A stretch of DNA of 64,000 nt from Chloroflexota bacterium (GTDB lineage: Bacteria; Chloroflexota; Anaerolineae; Anaerolineales; Villigracilaceae). Made by a program: the position numbers and the translations under genes. The notes under the pieces were generated by a model, which saw only the letters and a list, made by a program, of their open reading frames with translations, made no database searches and was not told the DNA's origin. Within the stretch, counting starts at the first letter, position 1. Each line of letters begins with the position of its first letter. The stretch covers positions 1 through 64,000 of the forward strand of contig JACRBI010000013.1 in NCBI GenBank assembly GCA_016234495.1. Reading direction: 5' to 3'. Shown one piece after another: positions 1,460 through 12,143 of the stretch.

Positions 1460-3871
1460 TCAAACTGTATTCTGTAATTCACCAATCAACCTCGCGAGTT
1501 CATCGTAGGCTTGCTTAAGTTGCGCAAGATATTCCTGCCGGGGTTCTTTGTCGGAGTCGGAAGAATTGGCCAGCTTTAACAACACTTCATGAAAATCCTT
1601 GTGAGGCTGTTCGATACCCAGGAAAAATTCGTTTTGACCGTAATCCTTTTTCCCGCGCCCGTAATACCAATGTCCCAACAGGCACTCGGTCTGAGATATT
1701 GCTTCCTCTGGCGCAAGCCGTCTTTCCCCATTCACTGAAGCCTCAACTTTTTTCACCCAATCGCTGTGCTGCGACGATGCCAAAACGATGTTGATCAGAT
1801 TGTTCGATTTACTGGATTCCAGATCCAGTTTGAATTGAGCCGCCACCATTTGCAGCATCAGCGATAACTCTTTCATGGATGCCGCCGAATCAGAGACTTC
1901 CTTCACCTGGGCAGATACTTCATCGGTGGAGGTTGATACCTCCTGGATCGCCGCGCTGCTTTCTTCGCTGATGCTGGCGATGTTCTCGATGGCATGAGTC
2001 AGCTCTGACGAATTCGCCGCCATTTCCTCGGTCGCGGCAGTATTCTCCTCGATCACAGCCGAAACCGCATCGACCGCCTCGACCAGTTCCGCCGCCGCCG
2101 CGCTGACCTTGGCTGCCGCCGCGCCCGCATCCTCGGCCTGCTTGTAGACCGACTCTGCCGCGCCGAGAATGTTGTCGAGCACCTCGCCTGCCGAATGTGC
2201 GCGGGTGACGCCCGACTCAACTTCATCAGCCGAAGCCTTCATGGCAGTCACCGCCTCAGAGACGGTCTTCTGAATGCCCTTGATCAGTGCCGCAATTTCT
2301 TTCGTGGCAAGCGTCGAGCGTTCTGCCAGCTTGCGGACTTCATCCGCCACGACCGCAAAGCCCTTGCCCTGCTCGCCAGCGCGCGCCGCTTCGATGGCGG
2401 CATTCAGCGCTAATAAATTAGTCTGCGAAGCAATGTCTTCGATGGTCTCGACGATGTTACCGATCTCCTCGGAGCGCGAGCCCATCTCTTCGACCTTGGA
2501 GGCAGTCAGGCCGACCTTGCTGCGGATGGCTTCCATGCCGCTGATGGTTTCCTTGACCGTCTTCGCGCCGTCGCGAGATAATGAAGCCGACTGGGCCGAG
2601 TCACGGGTGACGGACTGCACATTGTTGGCGACCTGCCCAATGGCAGTGTTGATGCGCGAGGTTGTCTGCGAAGCCTGAGAGATGGCGCGGGCTTGTTCCT
2701 GCGCGCCTTTGGCCACGCCGTCAATGACGCGTCCCATCTGCTCGACGGAGCTTGAAGTCTTGGTGATGCTGTCAGTTTGCTGGGTTGTGCCGAGCGCGAC
2801 CTGTTGAATGGTGGCCGCGATCTGACTGGCGGCTTCGCCGGATTGTTCGGCAGCGGCAGCAAGGTGCGCGGCTGAAGAGGTGACAGCATTTGCGCTTTCT
2901 GTTATCAAGCCCACGGCTTCGCGCAGACCGATGATCATCTTGACAAAGGCGTTGCCGAGTTCATCCTTATCTGATTTTGGGGTTACATGGGTTGTCAGGT
3001 CGTTCTCTGCAATGGCTGTGGCGGCCACGCCCATGCCCTGCATGTAGTTGATCAATTCATCGAAAGACTTTCCAATATCCCCGATCTCATCCTTGCGCAG
3101 GCGCACCTTATTTTTCTCTGTGTCGCTCATGTCACGCAAGAGATTTCCCGCCGCCATTGCCTTCGAGATTCTTACCAATATTCCCATCGGAATTGTGATG
3201 CTGCGGCTGATAACCAGCACCGACCCCAATGCCAGTGAGATACCTAAAATGCTGGTCGCGATCAGCAGGCTGCGCGTGGATTTAAATGTCCTATCGCCCT
3301 GGATGCTCGTTTCTTTGGCAATTTCTTTGTTGATCGAAAGCAGGTTGTGGATTGATTCGGTTAAAGCCTTGCTGGCTTTGGAAGTCCTCCCGCCATTTTC
3401 CAGGCTGGCAATTGCCTGCGCGCGGCTGCCAGCCATGTTCAATGCCAGCGCTTCCTGGGAAGCGTTATGATATTCGCGGATGGCTGTTTCAAACCTGCCC
3501 AGTTCTTCCCTCTCCTTGTCGCTCAATGCAGACGATTTGTAGGCTTTGAAATTATCATCTATGTTTTTCTCTAACTTTGCGATCTCTACTTTAATATTTT
3601 CCGCCTCTTTTGAGATAAGCACAGCCCTGTAAATGTTCCCCTTGATTGAGTTCATGTCGGCTTGTATACTGCCCAATTGCTCTATCGGCAAAAGGCGGTC
3701 TGTGTACATGGCAGTCATACCGTCGTTGATGTTGTTGATCGAAACGTTTCCCACCCCGGCGATGATGAGGATAAACACAAGGGTGGTGCCAAAAGCGCCA
3801 AGGAGTTTAAAGCTGGTCCTCAGGTTATCGATCCACTTCAAAGGGGCTGTCCAGAGTTTTGAGAGTTCCAT
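1460..3871 (-). CDS. Methyl-accepting chemotaxis protein with C-terminal CZB zinc-binding domain
   Basis: Transmembrane chemoreceptor of 803 residues. TM1 lies at about 22-44, a four-helix-bundle sensor at 45-200, TM2 at 201-223, HAMP at about 224-276 and the signalling domain at about 320-680. The conserved hairpin tip is near 484-516 ([17 protein letters not shown] then [14 protein letters not shown]). The tail, 695-800, is a CZB domain with the expected His/Cys ligands: H702, C730 in the motif [10 protein letters not shown]757 and H761 (PHKDFH). CZB domains bind zinc and in other receptors sense zinc or hypochlorous acid; the effector here is inference. The ATG at 3871 has AAGGAT upstream. 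A 12-base gap separates it from the cysteine-rich ORF upstream, so the two are probably cotranscribed. Confidence 0.96.
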
Positions 3872-4066: not shown

Positions 4067-4339
4067 GACGCACTCCTCTTTCTCGTGTCTTAACCGGCTT
4101 TGCTCACATCAATGGCTGCGGTGCCGCGCTGCGCACCATGGACGGAAATTTGGTAACCTGAAATTTCAGGCCGCCAAATTGACACCATTGTATAAACAAG
4201 GGCAAATTTTCATAATAAAAATGAAGATAAGAACTTATTAAGATTGCGTGAATTTTCCTGCCCCCCATTTTTTGTATTAGCCTCCTGAAAAAATGTGGTT
4301 TGCCGCTGAGATCACATTAAACTTCTTGCAAAAGTACTT
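4067..4339. other. Promoter/leader region of the minus-strand chemoreceptor unit
   Basis: No gene is seen. On the minus strand a sigma-70-like -10 (TATACAAT, 4194-4187) is followed, at the expected start of transcription, by a symmetrical nested palindrome (4147-4180). A clear -35 is lacking. The rest up to 4339 is AT-rich and featureless. Confidence 0.4.
4147..4180. promoter_or_regulatory. 34-bp nested palindrome, possible operator
   Basis: An outer perfect dyad AATTTGG (4147-4153) / CCAAATT (4174-4180) encloses, after 3-base spacers on both sides, an inner perfect palindrome CCTGAAATTTCAGG (4157-4170). Both share one axis at 4163.5. It lies just downstream of a minus-strand -10-like TATACAAT, so it could be an operator for the cysteine-rich ORF and CZB receptor, or a stem-loop in their leader RNA. 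Confidence 0.45.
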
Positions 4340-4362
4340 GTAGGGCGGGCTTTCAATCCGCC
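4340..4362 (+). repeat. REP-like hairpin with GTAG head (forward member of pair)
   Basis: GTAG is followed by an imperfect hairpin, GGCGG (4344-4348) pairing with CCGCC (4358-4362). A 5' GTAG or GGAG tetranucleotide plus hairpin is the known form of REP sequences mobilised by REP-associated HUH transposases (RAYTs). Its partner lies 22 bases downstream in opposite orientation. Confidence 0.55.
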
Positions 4363-4384
4363 ATGCTTCAAAATTCCACAAGAC

Positions 4385-4407
4385 GTCAGGCTAAAAGCCT
4401 GACCTAC
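4385..4407 (-). repeat. REP-like hairpin with GTAG head (inverted member of pair)
   Basis: Read on the minus strand, GTAG (4407-4404) is followed by a perfect 8-bp hairpin, GTCAGGCT (4385-4392) pairing with AGCCTGAC (4396-4403). With the forward copy at 4340-4362 it forms an inverted, BIME-like pair about 230 bases upstream of a HUH-transposase-like gene. Confidence 0.55.
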
Positions 4408-4639
4408 GATTGGCTTAAAAGCCCACTCTGTGGCTATGGCGGGCAGGATGACGGATTATTTCAAAAATCCGTCCAGACAACCTGCGTTGAAAATTTCACC
4501 CGTTTTTTATGGGAATTAACCCGCTTGCGGCTATACTGGGAAAAATCCAAACCATGTCCTTGATTAGATCAAAGGACTGCATGGCAAAAGGAAACCCATT
4601 GACGGAAGTGTTACGCCCTTTTTTCGCAAAGAGGTATTT

Positions 4640-5215
4640 GTGAATTCCTTTGAACTCGAATATGTAATGACAGAAACCGAGCAAGTGCAATTTGAGCAGA
4701 GAGAATTGCAAACGGTCTTGCCTGAGGCGATGCCTGCGTCAGCCCAGCCAGTGACTCTTGAAGAGACGCGCCCAGCCTCGGGCATGGAAGAGATCGAAAT
4801 TGTCGAGGTCGAATCCTTCCAGCAGAACCTTTATGAGTTGTCATACTCATGTTTGTTGATTCCCCGCTTCAGCGATCATTATTTGACAGGCGATATCACA
4901 TCAGATCTGCCGGACTGGGTAAGGCAAATTTGCATTTCATACGGCTGGCGGTTGGATGACATCATGGTTCGCCCCGGGCATCTTCACTGGGTCATGACCG
5001 TTCCCATCACCGTGAATCCCGCCCAGTTCATGCGGCTCATGCGCCAATTGACATCGCAGAAGATCTTTGAATATTACCCCCGCTATGCGCGCAAAAATGT
5101 TTCCAGCGATTTCTGGGCGCCCGCCTTTTTAGTCGCGCCTGGAAAACAATTTCAATCCATGGAAAATATAAACGCTTTTATTCTTCAAACACGCCGCCAG
5201 CAGGGAATTTACTAA
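4640..5215 (+). CDS. IS200/RAYT-like HUH domain protein lacking the catalytic tyrosine
   Basis: 191 residues. After an acidic, low-complexity N-terminal extension (1-60), residues 65-187 follow the layout of IS200/Y1 transposases. A first strand (YELSYSCLLIP) is followed by a helix, then the HUH motif H114-L115-H116 in VRPGHLHWVMTVP, a basic helix (about 127-142), an FWAPAFLV segment and a final helix. Y1 enzymes carry the nucleophilic tyrosine there in a Y-I-x-x-Q pattern. Here it reads AFILQ, so the position is phenylalanine (F180). Strand cleavage by the usual mechanism therefore looks impossible, and an exapted DNA- or RNA-binding role is inference. The GTG start at 4640 has AGAGG upstream; an ATG at 4667 is the alternative. 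REP-like hairpins lie upstream. Confidence 0.65.
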   Translation: MNSFELEYVMTETEQVQFEQRELQTVLPEAMPASAQPVTLEETRPASGMEEIEIVEVESFQQNLYELSYSCLLIPRFSDHYLTGDITSDLPDWVRQICISYGWRLDDIMVRPGHLHWVMTVPITVNPAQFMRLMRQLTSQKIFEYYPRYARKNVSSDFWAPAFLVAPGKQFQSMENINAFILQTRRQQGIY

Positions 5216-5419: not shown

Positions 5420-6364
5420 ATGAGCAATGTTGCGTCAGTTGAACTATCCAATCTAATGGCCGCTCGACGGCTTTTGGAGTTTGAAAAGAACGCCGAACTG
5501 CGCCGCAGTGGAAAAGATGTCGAGGAAAAATCTGCCCTGGATTATTTTGAAGAAGACCAGGCGTATATCAGCGACTCTGCCCTGACCGCCCAAAAACAAA
5601 ATGTGAATCCTTTTCCGCCGATAGAAAATATCACCATCAAATTATCTGACCTCCACAAAGCGAAAAACAATGGAAATGCCGAGGCGGCTCAGGAAACCAT
5701 TGTTGATGAAGAATTCATTGTAACGGGCAGCCAGAGTGTTGAGGTCAAGCTGGAGATGCGCTATCGCTCAAGTGTGCCATTGGAAGGCTTGCTGGTTCAC
5801 GATCAGAACTACGCAGAATCCGACCGCTACCTTTTTAAATTTGCCGATGGCGCCACTTTTACCATCCTCGATAAATGGACCAATAAAAGCACGACCATTT
5901 GGGGCGACCCCCACGTGGACGTTGATGACGTGTCCGGCAATAATAATGGCGATTTTAAAGACCTGAAAACCAGCGATGATTTCACAACCTTCATGCTGAG
6001 TGATGGCACGCGCGTAACATTCAAGGCAAAGGATGATGGGATCATTGAACAGGTGGATATCTTCAAAGGATCACAGCATGTCAAAGGTGTTGGCGCGGCT
6101 GCGCGGGGATTTTCTCCCGAAACCGGGCTTTTCTCCAAAAAAGTACTGGACGATGGACTGCTGGTTTCAAGCAGGCACGCTCAGGGTGATGTGATCTACG
6201 CCGGCGGCGACGGCAATGACTGGTTCGATGCCGGCAATAAATTAATCTGGGGCAAAACTACAGGTGCGGTGCTAACTCAACGTCCTTCCGCGCTGTTGGA
6301 GTTTTACTATAAACAAACAATATCCCAGTCAATAACGGTTCAGGCGGTTGCCAGAAACGCGTAA
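5420..6364 (+). CDS. DUF1521 / metal-ion-inducible autocleavage (MIIA)-like protein
   Basis: 314 residues with no signal peptide or membrane helix. The core, about 105-250, carries W161-G-D-P-H-V-D-V-D169. This is the Asp-Pro context at which DUF1521/MIIA domains (NopE1 of Bradyrhizobium, a type III effector) cleave themselves when calcium is bound. The acidic loop after it (DDVSGNNNGDFKDL) could hold the metal. A single RTX-like nonapeptide, GGDGNDWFD (262-270), lies near the C-terminus. Cleavage after D163 would give halves of about 163 and 151 residues. A sigma-28 promoter lies directly upstream (5359-5385) and GGAGG precedes the ATG, so the gene is expressed with late flagellar genes. Export through the flagellar apparatus is inference. 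WGDPH also occurs in von Willebrand D domains, an alternative fold. Confidence 0.7.
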   Translation: MSNVASVELSNLMAARRLLEFEKNAELRRSGKDVEEKSALDYFEEDQAYISDSALTAQKQNVNPFPPIENITIKLSDLHKAKNNGNAEAAQETIVDEEFIVTGSQSVEVKLEMRYRSSVPLEGLLVHDQNYAESDRYLFKFADGATFTILDKWTNKSTTIWGDPHVDVDDVSGNNNGDFKDLKTSDDFTTFMLSDGTRVTFKAKDDGIIEQVDIFKGSQHVKGVGAAARGFSPETGLFSKKVLDDGLLVSSRHAQGDVIYAGGDGNDWFDAGNKLIWGKTTGAVLTQRPSALLEFYYKQTISQSITVQAVARNA

Positions 6365-6628
6365 GTATGCAGTTTTAGTTTGGGTTAAAAATGCTGTAAT
6401 CATTTTAGGAAAATGGGGGAGTAAATCAAAAAATATCGCTTGTCATCCCTGCTGATTTTTGCCGGGCTGTTTTACGCACCCTGCTGCGTGCGATATTTTT
6501 AGCCAATCTTTATATTCCTTTCACGGCCTCTTTACACGAAAATTTAGGGCGATATGCTAAAGTTACGCATGAATAACCGTCTGCCTTGGATATTAATTTG
6601 GAATCCGGGCAGAAAGGAAAAAAAGATC
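6365..6628. promoter_or_regulatory. Intergenic region: long-range stem-loop and candidate promoter of the flbD-mot-fli operon
   Basis: An 11-bp perfect inverted repeat, AAAAATATCGC (6429-6439) / GCGATATTTTT (6490-6500), encloses about 50 bases that contain a smaller GCAC...GTGC dyad. It ends in T residues and may end the MIIA transcript. Downstream, TTTACA (6531-6536), a 16-base spacer and TATGCT (6553-6558) form a plausible but unproven sigma-70 promoter for the long operon that begins with flbD. Confidence 0.4.
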
Positions 6629-6838
6629 GTGATATTTCTTACCCGTACGAATGGCGTGAAATTTTATATCAACCCGGAGTTGATCCAAACAGTGGAGGCA
6701 ACTCCAGATACGATCATCACATTAGTGAACAATAAAAAGCTGCTTGTTAAAGACACACCGCAGGAAATTGCCGAACGCTTCATCGAATACAGGCAGAAAA
6801 CCATGGCGCCGCTTTTACCTCGAACGTCGAATGAATAA
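6629..6838 (+). CDS. flbD: Flagellar protein FlbD/SwrD family
   Basis: 69 residues: VIFLTRTNGVKFYINPELIQ, then TPDTIITLVNNKKLLVKDTPQEI. This is the FlbD pattern of hydrophobic start, LTRxNG, NPxLI and PDT. FlbD/SwrD sits at the head of mot-fli operons and in Bacillus raises flagellar torque through the stator. Upstream ATG codons in frame (6554, 6569) would add 25 or 20 residues unlike the family. The GTG at 6629, with AAAGGA about 10 bases before it, restores the usual length. motA follows after 51 bases. Confidence 0.85.
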   Translation: MIFLTRTNGVKFYINPELIQTVEATPDTIITLVNNKKLLVKDTPQEIAERFIEYRQKTMAPLLPRTSNE

Positions 6839-6889: not shown

Positions 6890-7714
6890 ATGGATATTGC
6901 AACCATCTCGGGGCTGGTTCTGGCCATTACGGTTATTGTCGTGGCGTTGATCATGGACGGCGGCTCGCCGGCGGAATTATTTGCACACCCGTCAGCGATT
7001 ATCTTGATTTTTGGCGGGTCCCTGGGCGCGACTGTCATTACCTCTCCATTGAAAGTTGTGCTCACATTGCCCAAGGTCATTATGCAGGCATTTACTTCCG
7101 CTGGTTTTGATGCCAAAGGGACAATTGAGTTATTAACCAAACTTGCAGACAAAGCGCGCCGCGAAGGACTGCTTGCGCTCGAAGAGGACAGCAGAAAGAT
7201 CACAGATAAATTCCTCAAAAAAGGCGTCATGATGGTGGTTGACGGAGTGGAGCCTGAACAGGTATCGGCTATTTTGGAAACCACGGTCGATCAAATGCGC
7301 ACCCGCCATAAAAGCGGAATTGGCTTCTTTACCGCAGCCGGCGCTTTTGCGCCGACATTCGGCATTATCGGTACGGTCATGGGCTTGATCAGCGTGTTGA
7401 AACAATTGGATAACCCCTCTGCATTGGGAGAAGCAATTGCCGCGGCATTTCTGGCGACTCTCTGGGGCTTGCTGAGCGCCAACCTGATCTACCTGCCAAT
7501 CGCTGGAAAGCTAAAGGCCAAAAGTGAAGAGGAAGCGCGCAATCGGTACATGCAATTGGAGGGTATCCTCTCCATTCAAGCAGGCGAAAACCCGCGCATT
7601 GTGCGCGACAAACTCACAGCATATATGACCCCATCAGAAGTAAAGGGAGAGGATGATGCGGAGAAAGCCAAAGGCGACCAGAAAGTCCCGGCTGGTAACA
7701 AGGCTCAGGCGTAA
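6890..7714 (+). CDS. motA: Flagellar stator protein MotA
   Basis: Proton-channel half of the stator. The 274 residues carry four membrane helices: about 4-22, 33-52, 144-166 (GFFTAAGAFAPTFGIIGTVMG, with the conserved prolines) and 177-199. The charged cytoplasmic loop between helices 2 and 3 contacts FliG. The C-terminal tail is charged. CAGGAG precedes the ATG. motB starts two bases after the stop, as expected for subunits needed in fixed ratio. Confidence 0.97.
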   Translation: MDIATISGLVLAITVIVVALIMDGGSPAELFAHPSAIILIFGGSLGATVITSPLKVVLTLPKVIMQAFTSAGFDAKGTIELLTKLADKARREGLLALEEDSRKITDKFLKKGVMMVVDGVEPEQVSAILETTVDQMRTRHKSGIGFFTAAGAFAPTFGIIGTVMGLISVLKQLDNPSALGEAIAAAFLATLWGLLSANLIYLPIAGKLKAKSEEEARNRYMQLEGILSIQAGENPRIVRDKLTAYMTPSEVKGEDDAEKAKGDQKVPAGNKAQA

Positions 7715-7716
7715 CC

Positions 7717-8487
7717 ATGGCACACCGTAAAGAAGAACACGAAGAGCATCACGATGAACGCTGGCTGGTGAGCTACGCAGATTTTATTACCCTGTTGATG
7801 GTCTTGTTCGTTGTGCTTTACTCCATGGGACAGGTGAATGTGGAGAAATACAAACTATTGGCAGAAAGCATGAAGATGGCTTTCTCCCTTGGCGGTGCCT
7901 CTCAGGTGGTGGACAGCCAGATCAACCAGGCTGGAGGCGATAGTGAAGACGGAACAGCCAAGCCGATAGTTGTTCCCGGTATCCCCGAAGGACCAACCCA
8001 GTCTGAGGAAGTCGCCGGACAATTAACAGCCATGCTCTCCTCTCAAAACCTTGGCAATCAGGTAAGCGTTCAAACCAACATCGAAGGAGTATTGATCTCC
8101 CTCAGCGAACGCCTGATCTTCAAGAACGACCAGACAGACCTGCCCCCGGAAGCCTTGCAGGTGATCGATACAATTGTTGAGATGCTGCGCCCGATCGAAA
8201 ACAAGATTCGCCTGGTTGGGCATACCAATAACACGCCTTCCACCAATCCGCTTTACCCGACAAATTGGGAATTGTCACTCGCGCGCGCCACATCGGTTGC
8301 GAAATATCTGATCAATGCCGGCGTTGCGCCGGAGAGGTTGATCGTTTCAGGTCAGGGTGAGTACGCCCCGGTGTTTCCAAATGATACCGATCAGCATAAA
8401 GAATTGAACGCCCGTGTGGAAATCATCATCATCTATAAAGTGGACAGCAATATCATAGACGTCAACGCGCCGAGCGTTCTGCCATAA
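7717..8487 (+). CDS. motB: Flagellar stator protein MotB
   Basis: Ion-binding and cell-wall-anchoring stator subunit, 256 residues. A His/Glu-rich N-terminus leads into one membrane helix with the ion-carrying aspartate, D22 in SYADFITLLMVLFVVLYSMG. The C-terminal OmpA-like domain (about 120-250) binds peptidoglycan and shows GHTNN, NWELSLARA and NARVEI motifs. Whether protons or sodium drive it cannot be settled from this sequence. The gene follows motA by two bases. Confidence 0.97.
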   Translation: MAHRKEEHEEHHDERWLVSYADFITLLMVLFVVLYSMGQVNVEKYKLLAESMKMAFSLGGASQVVDSQINQAGGDSEDGTAKPIVVPGIPEGPTQSEEVAGQLTAMLSSQNLGNQVSVQTNIEGVLISLSERLIFKNDQTDLPPEALQVIDTIVEMLRPIENKIRLVGHTNNTPSTNPLYPTNWELSLARATSVAKYLINAGVAPERLIVSGQGEYAPVFPNDTDQHKELNARVEIIIIYKVDSNIIDVNAPSVLP

Positions 8488-8525
8488 ATTGGATCGGCCA
8501 AACAGGTTTTTTGAATCGGAGTCAT

Positions 8526-9119
8526 ATGTTAGATAAAATCCTAAAAATCCTAAATGTGATCACACAGGTGATTTTGCTAGGCACTGCCTTCTTAACGCTC
8601 CTCATGGCTTACATCATCTTTGCTCCGGATGAACTCCCCAAACCCTTCCGCCTGCAATACAAGTACGATTCTGCCTTCACCACGCCTGTCCCTGAGGCTG
8701 CTGCACATGCTCCAGTTGAAGAGGCAGCCGCTGCGCCCGCCGAAGGGCACGAATTCATTCCGGGCGAAGGCATCATGCTCAACATGTCCACCAAGATCAT
8801 CAATCTGGTTGATCCAGGCGGGCACAGATATATCCGCGTGACCATTGTGGCTGAGTTCGCTCCCGACAACCCGGAATATGAGACGCTGCCGGAAGAGGAA
8901 AAGATAGCCTATGTTGCGGCGTTTGAAGAAAAACTTAATTCCCGTCTGCCCATCATGGATGACACCGTGATTACGCTTCTCTCCACAAAAACCTACGAAG
9001 ACCTCTATACCGCTGAGGGCAAGGAAAAACTGCGAACGGAAATTATGCAAATCCTTTCCGAAAAGTTGGTTGACCTGCATCTCCTTTCGATCTATTTTAC
9101 AGAATTCGTGGTTCAGTAA
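8526..9119 (+). CDS. fliL: Flagellar basal-body-associated protein FliL
   Basis: 197 residues. A short cytoplasmic start and one membrane helix (about 10-31) lead to an Ala/Glu-rich linker and the stomatin-like FliL domain (about 85-197). That domain includes RYIRVTIVAEF and a final LVDLHLLSIYFTEFVVQ, the usual FliL C-terminus. FliL rings surround the stator and support torque. A TTG five codons upstream (8511) is in frame, but CGGAG lies about 5 bases before the ATG at 8526, so I use that start. fliM begins 3 bases after the stop. Confidence 0.93.
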   Translation: MLDKILKILNVITQVILLGTAFLTLLMAYIIFAPDELPKPFRLQYKYDSAFTTPVPEAAAHAPVEEAAAAPAEGHEFIPGEGIMLNMSTKIINLVDPGGHRYIRVTIVAEFAPDNPEYETLPEEEKIAYVAAFEEKLNSRLPIMDDTVITLLSTKTYEDLYTAEGKEKLRTEIMQILSEKLVDLHLLSIYFTEFVVQ

Positions 9120-9122
9120 ATT

Positions 9123-10154
9123 ATGCTGGCTCAATCAGAAATTGACGCACTATTGTCTGGCGCCATCAACCTTGGCCAGAAGAACGGCGAGGAAGGTGTT
9201 AACCTGGCTGATATGATGAATCAGCCGGGCGAGACCACCAAGCCGGAAGTTGCCGGTGAAAAGAAGGTTCAAACCTACAACTTCTGGTCGCCTGCCAGGT
9301 TTTCGAAAGAGCAGATGCGCGCCGTCGAACTGGTTCACGAAGATTTAAGCGAGCGGCTGACCACATCTCTGCCAACTTTTTTGCGAACCAATGTGCGCCC
9401 GCGTCTGGCTCTCATGGAGCAGGGCCGCTTTCATGACTTCATCAAGGATTTCCCCGACCACACATTATTCCACTTGATTTCTCTTGCGCCCCTGCCCGGT
9501 CACATGGTATTGACCATGAGTCTTAACGTCAGTTATTTGATATTGGAGCAGCGGCTTGGGGGAAAGATCGAGGGGCGGTTCACAGAACGTCCGTTGACCG
9601 AAATAGATCAGTCGCTTTTGCGCGGCATGGTGGAGCATATGCTGGGCGATGTAAAAAGCGCCTGGAGCAAGGTCGTTTCGCTTGAGCCATCTTTGGAAGA
9701 CAGCACGATCAACCAGCACTGGGTACAGATGATGATGGGCAATGAGCGGGTTTTGCTGATCGCCATTGAAATCAATATTCAAGGTATTACAGGCACGATG
9801 AGTATTTTTATCCCCTTTAATACACTTAAGCCGATCGCTGACGTTCTTAACCCTCACATCTGGATTGCCGGACGCAAGGAACAGTTGCAAGATCCCATAG
9901 CTCGTCAGGCAGCGATCCAGACCATGCTGAAATCGATCATTCCGATTAAGGTCGTTCTGGGAAATGCCGAATTGACGTTGAAGGATCTGGTGAACCTGTC
10001 AATCGGCGACGTGATCGAGCTTGATCAAAATATCGATAACCCATTGGTTGTGCAGGTTGCAGACAAAAAGCAGTTCCTCGCCAATGTTGGAAAATCACGC
10101 AAGCGCATGGGAGTTCAGATTACCGGGGTGTATCGTCAGTATGATGATGTCTAA
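9123..10154 (+). CDS. fliM: Flagellar motor switch protein FliM
   Basis: C-ring protein of 343 residues. The N-terminal CheY-binding peptide LAQSEIDALLSG is intact, so switching by phospho-CheY is expected. The CheC-like middle domain (about 45-240) binds FliG, and the C-terminal SpoA domain (about 255-330) pairs with FliN. The gene lies between fliL and fliN, with 23 bases before fliN. Confidence 0.97.
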   Translation: MLAQSEIDALLSGAINLGQKNGEEGVNLADMMNQPGETTKPEVAGEKKVQTYNFWSPARFSKEQMRAVELVHEDLSERLTTSLPTFLRTNVRPRLALMEQGRFHDFIKDFPDHTLFHLISLAPLPGHMVLTMSLNVSYLILEQRLGGKIEGRFTERPLTEIDQSLLRGMVEHMLGDVKSAWSKVVSLEPSLEDSTINQHWVQMMMGNERVLLIAIEINIQGITGTMSIFIPFNTLKPIADVLNPHIWIAGRKEQLQDPIARQAAIQTMLKSIIPIKVVLGNAELTLKDLVNLSIGDVIELDQNIDNPLVVQVADKKQFLANVGKSRKRMGVQITGVYRQYDDV

Positions 10155-10177: not shown

Positions 10178-10519
10178 ATGGAAAACATAAATAACGAAGT
10201 CGAAGAAATGCCCGTCAGCAAAATTGCCGAGTCCGTAGCGGATAAGTCGGCTGGAAGCCGGTCATCGAACATCGAATTGCTGATGGATGTGTCGCTGAAA
10301 GTTACCGTCGAGTTGGGACGCACCCGCATGCAGCTCGCCCGAATCATCGAGTTGAAGCACGGGTCGGTGGTTGAACTGGACCGGCTCGCGGGTGACCCCG
10401 TGGACGTTTTTGTGAATGACCACATGGTGGCGCGCGGCGAAGTCGTCGTCGTGGACGATAAATTTGGCGTCCGCATCATTGAAATGGTTTCTGCAAATGG
10501 CGAGAAGGTGACACCCTGA
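10178..10519 (+). CDS. fliN: Flagellar motor switch protein FliN
   Basis: 113 residues. The SpoA domain, about 35-110, shows LLMDVSLKVTVELGRT, then GSVVELDRLAGDPVDVFVN and GEVVVVDDKFGVRI. These are standard FliN landmarks. No extra CheC-like domain is present, so this is FliN rather than FliY; the phosphatase role is carried by the separate cheC and cheX genes. AGAGG precedes the ATG, and the stop overlaps the fliO start by one base. Confidence 0.96.
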   Translation: MENINNEVEEMPVSKIAESVADKSAGSRSSNIELLMDVSLKVTVELGRTRMQLARIIELKHGSVVELDRLAGDPVDVFVNDHMVARGEVVVVDDKFGVRIIEMVSANGEKVTP

Positions 10520-11031
10520 TGTCCGCAATAACGGCGTTCCTCAGGAAGTGGCTCGAAACCAGCAGCAAAAAACAAAAGCTGACTGTTTCGTTGTACCTTC
10601 TTGGCTTCGTGGTAACCATCGTGCTTTTATCTTTGGGTGGCGCTTCGCAGGCAGTTAACGATCCATTGGGCTCCACGCCGTTTTATTTCGTAAGCGCCTT
10701 TGTAAAACTTTTGGGGGTCTTGCTGTTGATCGTTGGCTGCTCCGTGCTGCTCCGCCGCTGGATGCAGATTGGCCCGAACGGGAAGCTCAACCGCCAGATG
10801 CGCCTGCTCGAAACGACCAGGCTCTCCCCCAAGCAGGCTCTTCATTTAGTTGCCATCGGTGACCAGAAATTTTTGATCGGAGCCACCGACCAAAACGTTT
10901 CCCTGATCTCACCTGTTGAATGCAATGAAGCCCCCGCGCCAGAAGCGGAAACTCAGGCTCAATCAAATTTGGACTTTGGCGCATTGCTCCATTCTTTTAA
11001 TTTACCGAGTGAGAATTTAAAAAAGGATTAG
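10519..11031 (+). CDS. fliO: Flagellar biosynthetic protein FliO-like
   Basis: 170 residues with two predicted membrane helices (about 22-42 and 55-77). A basic turn follows, then a small domain with RLLETTRLSPKQALHLVAIGDQKFLIGAT. This hydrophobic-strand pattern (V-x-I-G, FLIG-T) is typical of FliO/FliZ. FliO helps assemble FliP in the export gate. The family is poorly conserved, so position between fliN and fliP carries much of the weight. Translation is likely coupled to fliN through the one-base overlap. Confidence 0.85.
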   Translation: MSAITAFLRKWLETSSKKQKLTVSLYLLGFVVTIVLLSLGGASQAVNDPLGSTPFYFVSAFVKLLGVLLLIVGCSVLLRRWMQIGPNGKLNRQMRLLETTRLSPKQALHLVAIGDQKFLIGATDQNVSLISPVECNEAPAPEAETQAQSNLDFGALLHSFNLPSENLKKD

Positions 11032-11040
11032 AGACCAGTC

Positions 11041-11865
11041 ATGGTTGAAAGTAAGTTTTCCAAAATAAGATCAAAGTTTTTGAAAACGGCTGGCAAACTG
11101 CATGGCAGGCCGTTCAATAAAGCCTTCATTTTCCTCCTTGTTGTTTTGATTTCCGGAGCCTTGTTGAGCGGATGTTCAACCGCCCCCGGCGTATCCTTGA
11201 CGGTTGACTCGCAATCGCCGGACCCGAAACAGGTCACGTCTGGCGTGCAGCTGCTGGTGCTCATGACAGTCCTGTCGCTGGCGCCGACCGTGCTGATTCT
11301 GTCCACATCCTTCACCCGCATCGTCATTGTATTGTCCATGCTGCGCAACGCGATCGGCACCCCGTCCATTCCGCCCAATCAGGTTCTGATCGGTCTTTCC
11401 CTCATCCTCACTTTTTTCATCATGGCTCCAGTTTATAAACAGATGGATAAAGAAGCGATCCAGCCTTTCATCAATGAGCAGATCGATCAAAAGACCGCCC
11501 TGACGCTTGCTCAAAAACCGATCCGCGAATTCATGTTCAAACAGACACGCGAAAAAGATATCCAGCTATTCCTCGATCTGGGCAACGAACCGCAGCCAGC
11601 CACGATTGACGACATTCCGACAGTCTCTTTGTTCCCCGCATTTATTATCAGCGAACTGCGCACCGCCTTCACCATGGGGTTCGTACTTTACATCCCGTTC
11701 CTCGTGATTGACCTGGTCGTTTCAAGCATCCTGCTTTCCATGGGCATGATGATGCTGCCGCCCTCGCTGGTTTCCCTGCCGTTCAAAGTCCTCCTTTTCG
11801 TGATGGTGGATGGCTGGTACTTGATCGTTCGCAGCCTGGTCTTGAGTTTCACTGGTACTTCATGA
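11041..11865 (+). CDS. fliP: Flagellar export gate protein FliP with lipobox-like signal
   Basis: 274 residues. FliP is the main core of the export gate with FliQ and FliR. The family body is clear: VLSLAPTVLILSTSFTRIVI, LRNAIGTPSIPPNQVLIGL and the C-terminal SLPFKVLLFVMVDGW. FliP normally has a cleaved signal peptide. Here the N-region is long and basic and is followed by a hydrophobic stretch ending in the lipobox L42-S43-G44-C45, so signal peptidase II processing is possible. No proline-rich fusion or truncation is seen. fliQ follows after 5 bases. Confidence 0.96.
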   Translation: MVESKFSKIRSKFLKTAGKLHGRPFNKAFIFLLVVLISGALLSGCSTAPGVSLTVDSQSPDPKQVTSGVQLLVLMTVLSLAPTVLILSTSFTRIVIVLSMLRNAIGTPSIPPNQVLIGLSLILTFFIMAPVYKQMDKEAIQPFINEQIDQKTALTLAQKPIREFMFKQTREKDIQLFLDLGNEPQPATIDDIPTVSLFPAFIISELRTAFTMGFVLYIPFLVIDLVVSSILLSMGMMMLPPSLVSLPFKVLLFVMVDGWYLIVRSLVLSFTGTS

Positions 11866-11870
11866 GGTAA

Positions 11871-12143
11871 ATGATGACAGAAGCCTATGTTCTTACGCTG
11901 GGACAAAACGCGATCATGATCGCCCTGATACTTGCCGGGCCGATCCTGTTGGTGAGTCTCGTCGTTGGCAGTTTGATCAGCCTCGTTCAAGCCGCGACCC
12001 AGATCAACGAGTCGACGCTCATCTTTATCCCCAAATTAATTGGTATTACTCTGGTGCTGGTGCTCCTTGGTTCATGGATGCTCCAGCAGGCAATGACATT
12101 TACCCACACTTTGTTTACAAGTTTACCCAACCTGGTCCCCTGA
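11871..12143 (+). CDS. fliQ: Flagellar export gate protein FliQ
   Basis: 90 residues, two membrane helices. PILLVSLVVGSLISLVQA, then TQINESTLIFIPKLIG is the FliQ signature. Four FliQ subunits wrap the FliP/FliR core of the export gate. The start is either the ATG at 11871 or the adjacent one at 11874; GAGG lies a few bases upstream. A 20-base gap separates it from the HDOD gene, so these are probably cotranscribed although fliR is not next. Confidence 0.95.
   Translation: MMTEAYVLTLGQNAIMIALILAGPILLVSLVVGSLISLVQAATQINESTLIFIPKLIGITLVLVLLGSWMLQQAMTFTHTLFTSLPNLVP

Follow-up and report, generated by a model that had tools for sequence, protein, structure and literature searches.

The window analysed here, a stretch of 64,000 nucleotides of DNA, contains a gene whose product is very probably a domesticated IS200/IS605-type TnpA fold, predicted to be catalytically dead and tied to a flagellar locus. 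Its most likely role is that of a regulator of this locus that binds through the TnpA fold and is predicted to have lost catalysis. The gene (referred to as the Y1 gene) and the features around it are the following.

1460-3871, minus strand: gene of a methyl-accepting chemotaxis protein (MCP) of 803 aa, which we take it to be from our own reading of the sequence; divergent from the Y1 gene
4338-4409, no strand assigned: REPIN, i.e. two inverted GTAGG hairpins, 231-302 bp upstream of the Y1 gene start
4340-4362, plus strand: hairpin 1, a GTAGG hairpin, GTAGGGCGGGCTTTCAATCCGCC
4385-4407, minus strand: hairpin 2, a GTAGG hairpin, GTAGGTCAGGCTTTTAGCCTGAC, inverted relative to hairpin 1
4631-4635, plus strand: Shine-Dalgarno-like GAGGT preceding the GTG start of the Y1 gene
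4640-5215, plus strand: Y1-fold gene, GTG start, 191 aa, stand-alone TnpA(Y1)-fold protein
5420-6364, plus strand: DUF1521-domain protein, the downstream neighbour (Pfam, 30.7 bits; cut-off 23.6)
6554-6838, plus strand: flagellar protein FlbD (Pfam PF06289, E 1.2e-23)
6890-9119, plus strand: presumably motA, motB and fliL (names from our own reading); order matched in 9 of 11 orthologous loci
9123-10154, plus strand: fliM, with the PF02154 match at 9276-9848
10178-12143, plus strand: presumably fliN, fliO, fliP and fliQ (names from our own reading); order matched in the orthologous loci that extend that far

The range 4340-5215 takes in the two hairpins and, after a gap of some 230 bp, the Y1 gene. 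The GAGGT-start context recurs in 9 of 12 members of the flagellar clade defined below (in the other 3 the start was not located by the script). Pfam Y1_Tnp (PF01797) matches the window protein with 51.4 bits against a cut-off of 23, which places it in the Y1_Tnp superfamily, as proposed in the initial annotation, where it was described as Y1/HUH-derived; with the NCBIfam equivalog model for IS200/IS605 TnpA it scored 48.9 bits and stayed below the cut-off of 55. Its sequence matches that of ISDra2 TnpA (E 3.3e-8). In the structure model, 107 of the 191 residues have a pLDDT of at least 90, nearly all of them within residues 65-190, which constitute the Y1 domain; residues 1-63 were modelled mostly with low confidence and are likely disordered. 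Structural comparison with VIA gave Z-scores of 14.2-16.2 to 15 TnpA entries, identifying the fold as that of TnpA, and the high values (up to ~16) extend to DNA-bound TnpA structures. The window protein consists of the TnpA-like domain and the low-confidence tail only, and neither a receiver nor a Roadblock domain was found in it. PADLOC returned no defence-system match for the window protein or for the fusion protein described below, and membership of the window protein in a defence system was rejected on this basis.

The window protein carries the motif G-H-L-H-W (codons 4976-4990; H114-L-H116), and in the alignment Phe180 occupies the position of the TnpA Tyr and Thr184 that of the Gln of the TnpA Y---Q signature. 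We compared these positions in the best 80 of 174 confirmed loci plus the window. Five members of the flagellar clade show YxH-F at the H-x-H and Tyr positions, four show YxQ-F, and HxH-F (the window protein), YxQ-W and YxQ-M occur once each; the 69 other loci have YxQ-Y in 53, YxQ-F in 11, YxH-F in two, and HxQ-F, YxL-F and HxH-F in one each. Tyr is found at the nucleophile position in 0 of 12 clade members, in agreement with the earlier observation that the nucleophilic Tyr is missing and Phe stands in its place. H-x-H is not conserved among the relatives, with one occurrence among the 12 clade members and one among the 69 other loci (L172). At the Y+4 position, Gln is present in one of the 80 rows listed (L098), whose frame ends early and whose Trp and Gln may stem from a frameshift; L098 was omitted from the dN/dS analysis. 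Nearly throughout the family, other residues have taken the catalytic positions: Y-x-Q stands at H-x-H, Tyr and Phe interchange, and the Gln at Y+4 is lost. These counts suggest that the former pocket has been rebuilt with a conserved Y-x-Q-W and that Tyr and Phe are interchangeable at the nucleophile position. The H-L-H motif, described initially as kept, is indeed present in the window protein, but 11 of the 12 clade members are without it; judged from the aligned sequences, it would seem to be a lone reversion, reachable by a single change from the Y-x-H found in five relatives. A second sporadic H-x-H occurs in L172 (3732-4139), a fusion-type protein with D-H-L-H-W and Phe.

The main member of the family is a protein of ~550 aa composed of a receiver domain, a Roadblock/MglB-like domain, a disordered linker and a C-terminal TnpA-like domain, and this receiver-Roadblock-TnpA-like fusion, usually encoded near polA, is the more striking family member. 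In the model of one fusion protein (L139), the receiver fold has a Z-score of 17.0 to the YycF receiver (VIA), the Roadblock/MglB-like fold has a Foldseek TMt of 0.67-0.71 to Myxococcus MglB, and a linker of ~150 low-confidence residues leads to the C-terminal TnpA-like domain, with a Z-score of 16.2 to 2ec2. The 50 matches listed by VIA for the fusion model were receivers and TnpA, and the Roadblock assignment comes from Foldseek. Pfam recognised neither the receiver nor the Roadblock part of the fusion protein, so that the folds alone revealed both, and a phmmer search of PDB sequences with the Roadblock part gave 0 matches. D54, K102 and P103 of the receiver are invariant in 28 aligned proteins.

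A relative was found in 60 of 61 genomes of the bacterial family, mostly in one copy and in a frame of ~430-610 aa. In the order sample, 79 of 151 genomes had a match, 72 of 151 in frames of at least 370 aa, the latter being a hand count by frame length, which alone does not prove fusion (two of these frames have a stop inside the match). The class sample (150 genomes) yielded one genome of another order with a 475-aa frame that, by our own reading, has the same composition, and in the phylum sample (201 genomes) the matches outside the class lay in frames of 127-161 aa, the ordinary length of TnpA. The fusion gene was located upstream of polA in all 10 loci that were read (by our own ORF reading; in L088, two ORFs lie between them), and polA was present in 62 of 69 further loci, while a stand-alone paralogue and loci truncated where a contig ends are among the other 7. 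The fusion gene of the window's own genome lies on contig C22 of G000 (L045, 9023-10621, minus strand), and in the loci read the fusion genes are followed by a gene for a TPR protein. A literature search that covered mainly freely accessible papers found no description of a receiver-Roadblock-TnpA fusion or of a dead HUH relative of this kind.

A tree was calculated from 59 chosen rows with the columns of the two His and the Tyr masked; L068, L070, near-copies and L172 were left out, and the two H-x-H changes on the tree therefore do not include L172. The window gene falls into a flagellar clade of 12 (support 100/99), the sister group of which consists of 9 stand-alone rows (support of the union 98/86). 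Both groups are nested inside the fusion proteins, indicating common descent. L049, a Roadblock-Y1 protein with 36% identity to the fusion protein, branches just outside the two groups, and the nested order of fusion, Roadblock-Y1 and stand-alone proteins suggests a stepwise loss, of the receiver and then of the Roadblock domain.

At six sister-group loci that were read, the gene of an Mrr-like protein recurs together with a variably complete set of kinase, response regulator, MraZ-like and ATPase genes; this cluster was not shown or not read at the L080 and L081 loci. Mrr and MraZ were assigned by Pfam at the paralogue of the window's own genome (contig C14), and the other genes (kinase, response regulator, ATPase) are presumed from our own reading. 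Signalling clusters of this type were noted at L043 (C14 of the own genome), L039, L040, L041, L042, L044, L049 and L187, with a stand-alone Y1 gene (Roadblock-Y1 in L049), an Mrr-like protein, a histidine kinase, NarL-type regulators, an MraZ-like protein and an AAA ATPase as parts, not every one of which was seen at each locus. PADLOC gave four matches, all of them PDC-S02, for the Mrr-like protein encoded next to the C14 paralogue. A potential exception to the flagellar association, the FliM-negative genome G192, has a stand-alone relative (186-aa frame) in an Mrr-like/kinase/regulator cluster and not at flagellar genes; this relative, which is outside the tree, was counted with the other paralogues because of its neighbours. 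The sole match in G021, in a frame of 71 aa where a contig ends, could not be assigned to a type.

The locus of the flagellar clade is an MCP/CheW-FlbD-MotAB-FliLMNOPQ cluster. FlbD and MotA follow downstream in 9 of the 11 orthologous loci (L093 and L100, without FlbD, stop at contig ends), an MCP-like gene is found in 10, and in all 11 an MCP/CheW gene and/or FlbD-MotA adjoin the Y1 gene. The content of the interval between the Y1 gene and FlbD varies, with DUF1521 in 6 of 11 orthologous loci and an MCP there in L099. The regions upstream of the Y1 gene in the 12 loci contained no match to a sigma-28- or sigma-54-like consensus. FliM is present in 3 of 61 family genomes, and these are exactly the genomes with a stand-alone flagellar Y1 gene; the probability of this co-occurrence by chance, with kinship ignored, is 2.8e-5. 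Two further flagellated genomes of the family also carry the gene, making 5 of 5 flagellated family genomes, and in G223 the Y1 gene and fliM lie on different contigs, where linkage is not visible. Among the 58 FliM-negative family genomes, the flagellar-type Y1 gene was found in none (assigned by identity, and by the tree for five stand-alone relatives). The stand-alone flagellar type was likewise found in 0 of 30 flagellated genomes from the other families of the order, 13 of which have other matches, so the Y1 gene is no general flagellar part. Joint inheritance of the entire cluster could explain why FliM and the Y1 gene co-occur. Between the window gene and its nearest orthologue (L093), dN was 0.16 and dS 1.35, giving a dN/dS of ~0.12 (among the 10 pairs that include the window gene, dS had reached saturation in 4), which supports purifying selection on the Y1 gene. 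The initial view of a domesticated rather than a mobile gene was borne out.

These observations can be arranged into a model of three steps. In step 1, supported by the tree, the C-terminal part of the polA-adjacent fusion would have been copied, giving rise to Roadblock-Y1 and stand-alone Y1 genes, and one stand-alone clade, including the window gene, would have been placed in the flagellar/chemotaxis cluster. In step 2, supported by the residue counts, HUH, Tyr and Gln would mostly have been lost before this budding, with the H-L-H of the window protein as a lone reversion. In step 3, we infer, the domain would act as a binding module without DNA cutting: it would bind a folded single strand, either an mRNA leader or an ssDNA hairpin, and tune the expression of the flanking MCP and flagellar genes, and the disordered N-terminal tail would contact partners. 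That the window protein binds such a strand and thereby tunes MCP/flagellar expression is close to an even call, falling just under it. A slight lean towards a nucleic-acid ligand comes from the TnpA fold, which is the fold of a hairpin-binding protein, and from the output position of the domain in the receiver protein. The wider proposal, that in Anaerolineae an IS200/IS605 TnpA became the output domain of a polA-adjacent receiver-Roadblock protein and that its budded flagellar copy represents a class of non-cutting regulators, which bind folded RNA or ssDNA and thereby control motility and chemotaxis genes, is tentative and possible rather than probable.

The same domesticated domain might instead serve chemotaxis/flagellar signalling purely through protein-protein contacts, as an adaptor or scaffold without a nucleic-acid ligand. 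This explanation, which differs in step 3 only, is a serious contender, although we would not give it an even chance. It draws on the fusion of relatives to receiver and Roadblock domains, which are usually protein-interaction modules, on the new conserved Y-x-Q-W at the former active site, on the MCP/CheW genes adjoining the Y1 gene and on the lowered net positive charge of the domain (~+2.4 for the clade, ~+3.4 for the fusion proteins and, by comparison, ~+8.6 for 2 IS200 rows), which weakens the nucleic-acid reading. However, the TnpA fold has been kept, with the closeness to DNA-bound TnpA structures reported above, the domains are still mostly basic (median pI of ~9 both for clade members and for fusion proteins), and nucleic-acid output domains commonly stand C-terminal to a receiver. 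The reduced charge and the Roadblock partner taken together make a protein adaptor nearly as likely as a nucleic-acid binder.

In the initial annotation, the window gene was taken to encode a domesticated, RAYT-like protein that binds REPs and lies next to the REP it targets. The two GTAG hairpins of opposite orientation were found upstream of the gene as it described, and they are multicopy: with up to 3 mismatches allowed, the two hairpin patterns matched the own genome 9 and 19 times and the reversed-pattern controls 0 times, so the hairpins are not due to chance. Six REPIN copies, including that of the window, have a mean column identity of 82% over 72 columns, and a covariance model of them detected 32 dispersed places in the own genome (48 strand-wise rows with E ≤0.01 merged by hand, 4 of the places having E >0.001; the scoring covered 150 of 878 candidates). 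The occurrence of GTAG repeats in Chloroflexi is reported in PMC3733652. A short inverted repeat with 11-nt arms, 91% complementary and 2 nt apart, lies between the REPIN and the Y1 gene at 4450-4473 and could be a terminator.

The closeness of the REPIN to the Y1 gene start and the multicopy nature of window-type REPs fit a RAYT-like protein, but the protein itself and the orthologous loci argue against it. With NCBIfam REP_Tyr_transpos, the window protein scored 23.5 bits against a cut-off of 80, and its model has a Z-score of 8.1 to the RAYT structure 4er8, compared with 14.2-16.2 to TnpA. None of the 11 orthologues had the window-type hairpin pair in its searched surroundings, which reached up to 1.5 kb upstream (less where a contig ended nearby) and 300 bp downstream; two of them (L094 and L096) have one weak, unrelated GTAG hairpin each. 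Within 1.5 kb of the two other domesticated Y1 genes of the own genome there are no related hairpins, the fusion gene having no GTAG hairpin and the third gene only one weak, unrelated one. The own genome has six Y1_Tnp matches, three of the domesticated family (C52, C22 and C14) and three that reach the RAYT cut-off of 80 bits (C49, 145.1; C45, 119.4; C29, 80.0). The C49 RAYT gene has related GTAGGTCAC-type hairpin pairs on both sides, and the REPIN covariance model found a place just before it (C49:14044-14114). The RAYT genes of C45 (L006) and C49 (L004) are flanked by different GTAG hairpins, which suggests that the genome contains more than one REP family. A RAYT-like identity of the window protein is very unlikely. 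The REPIN was also rejected as its dedicated target, being absent at the orthologous loci, dispersed over the genome and lacking near the paralogues; it is judged to be incidental and outside the system of the Y1 gene, and was probably spread by an ordinary RAYT elsewhere in the genome. A genome free of further hairpin copies had been named at the outset as a sign against the RAYT-like identity; further copies do exist, and they speak for dispersal of the element, not for a site dedicated to the protein.

It is still more improbable that the window protein has regained a metal site with H-L-H and acts as a divergent nuclease. Its H-x-H is the sole one in the clade, and the fusion protein L172 has one as well, but the window protein has neither Tyr nor the Gln at Y+4, the Y-x-H of five relatives means that a single base change yields the motif, and the reversion was seen without a shared context. 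Least credible of all is a functionless, decaying IS200/IS605 transposase remnant, which would agree with the Y1_Tnp homology and the absent catalytic residues but not with an intact frame, the low dN/dS relative to L093 and a clade of 12 with conserved neighbours.

The catalytically dead TnpA-fold regulator that we favour is part of a family in which the TnpA half appears to have been kept as a signalling domain in many genomes of the order, with a new conserved motif at the old active site, and in which one paralogue is tied to flagellar gene clusters. It offers a testable case of a transposase fold retained for binding alone, and a warning that an H-x-H seen in one sequence may be a chance reversion. 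To our knowledge, bacterial reuse of IS200/IS605 proteins is known mostly through RAYTs and TnpB derivatives.

Among known systems, the window protein is closest to IS200/IS605 TnpA (ISDra2 and IS608) in fold and, for ISDra2, in sequence. Unlike these, it has neither Tyr nor Y---Q, nearly all of its relatives are without H-x-H, and its gene is kept beside conserved neighbours and descended from a signalling fusion protein. In the classification of PMC6006769, as far as its accessible text goes, the TnpA proteins of ISDra2 and IS608 form subclass 1.1 with the signature Y---Q, the classed members share the HuH/Y core, and no class resembling a dead TnpA-fold family was seen in that text. RAYT (TnpA-REP, 4er8) belongs to the same Y1 superfamily, and GTAG hairpins lie nearby at the window locus only; the structural similarity is lower, the NCBIfam score is far under the cut-off and the REPIN is not conserved at the locus. 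TnpA and RAYT are the subject of PMC8266576, as its accessible part indicates. Receiver-output and Roadblock/MglB signalling proteins resemble the parent fusion, which carries both folds, and differ from it in that its last domain is a transposase fold. TldR proteins are of TnpB origin and RNA-guided, whereas the window protein is derived from TnpA and has no known guide RNA. PMC13418256 presents TldR as phage-encoded RNA-guided regulators of flagellin, and the window protein shares with them the reuse, at flagellar genes, of a protein from an IS605-type transposon.
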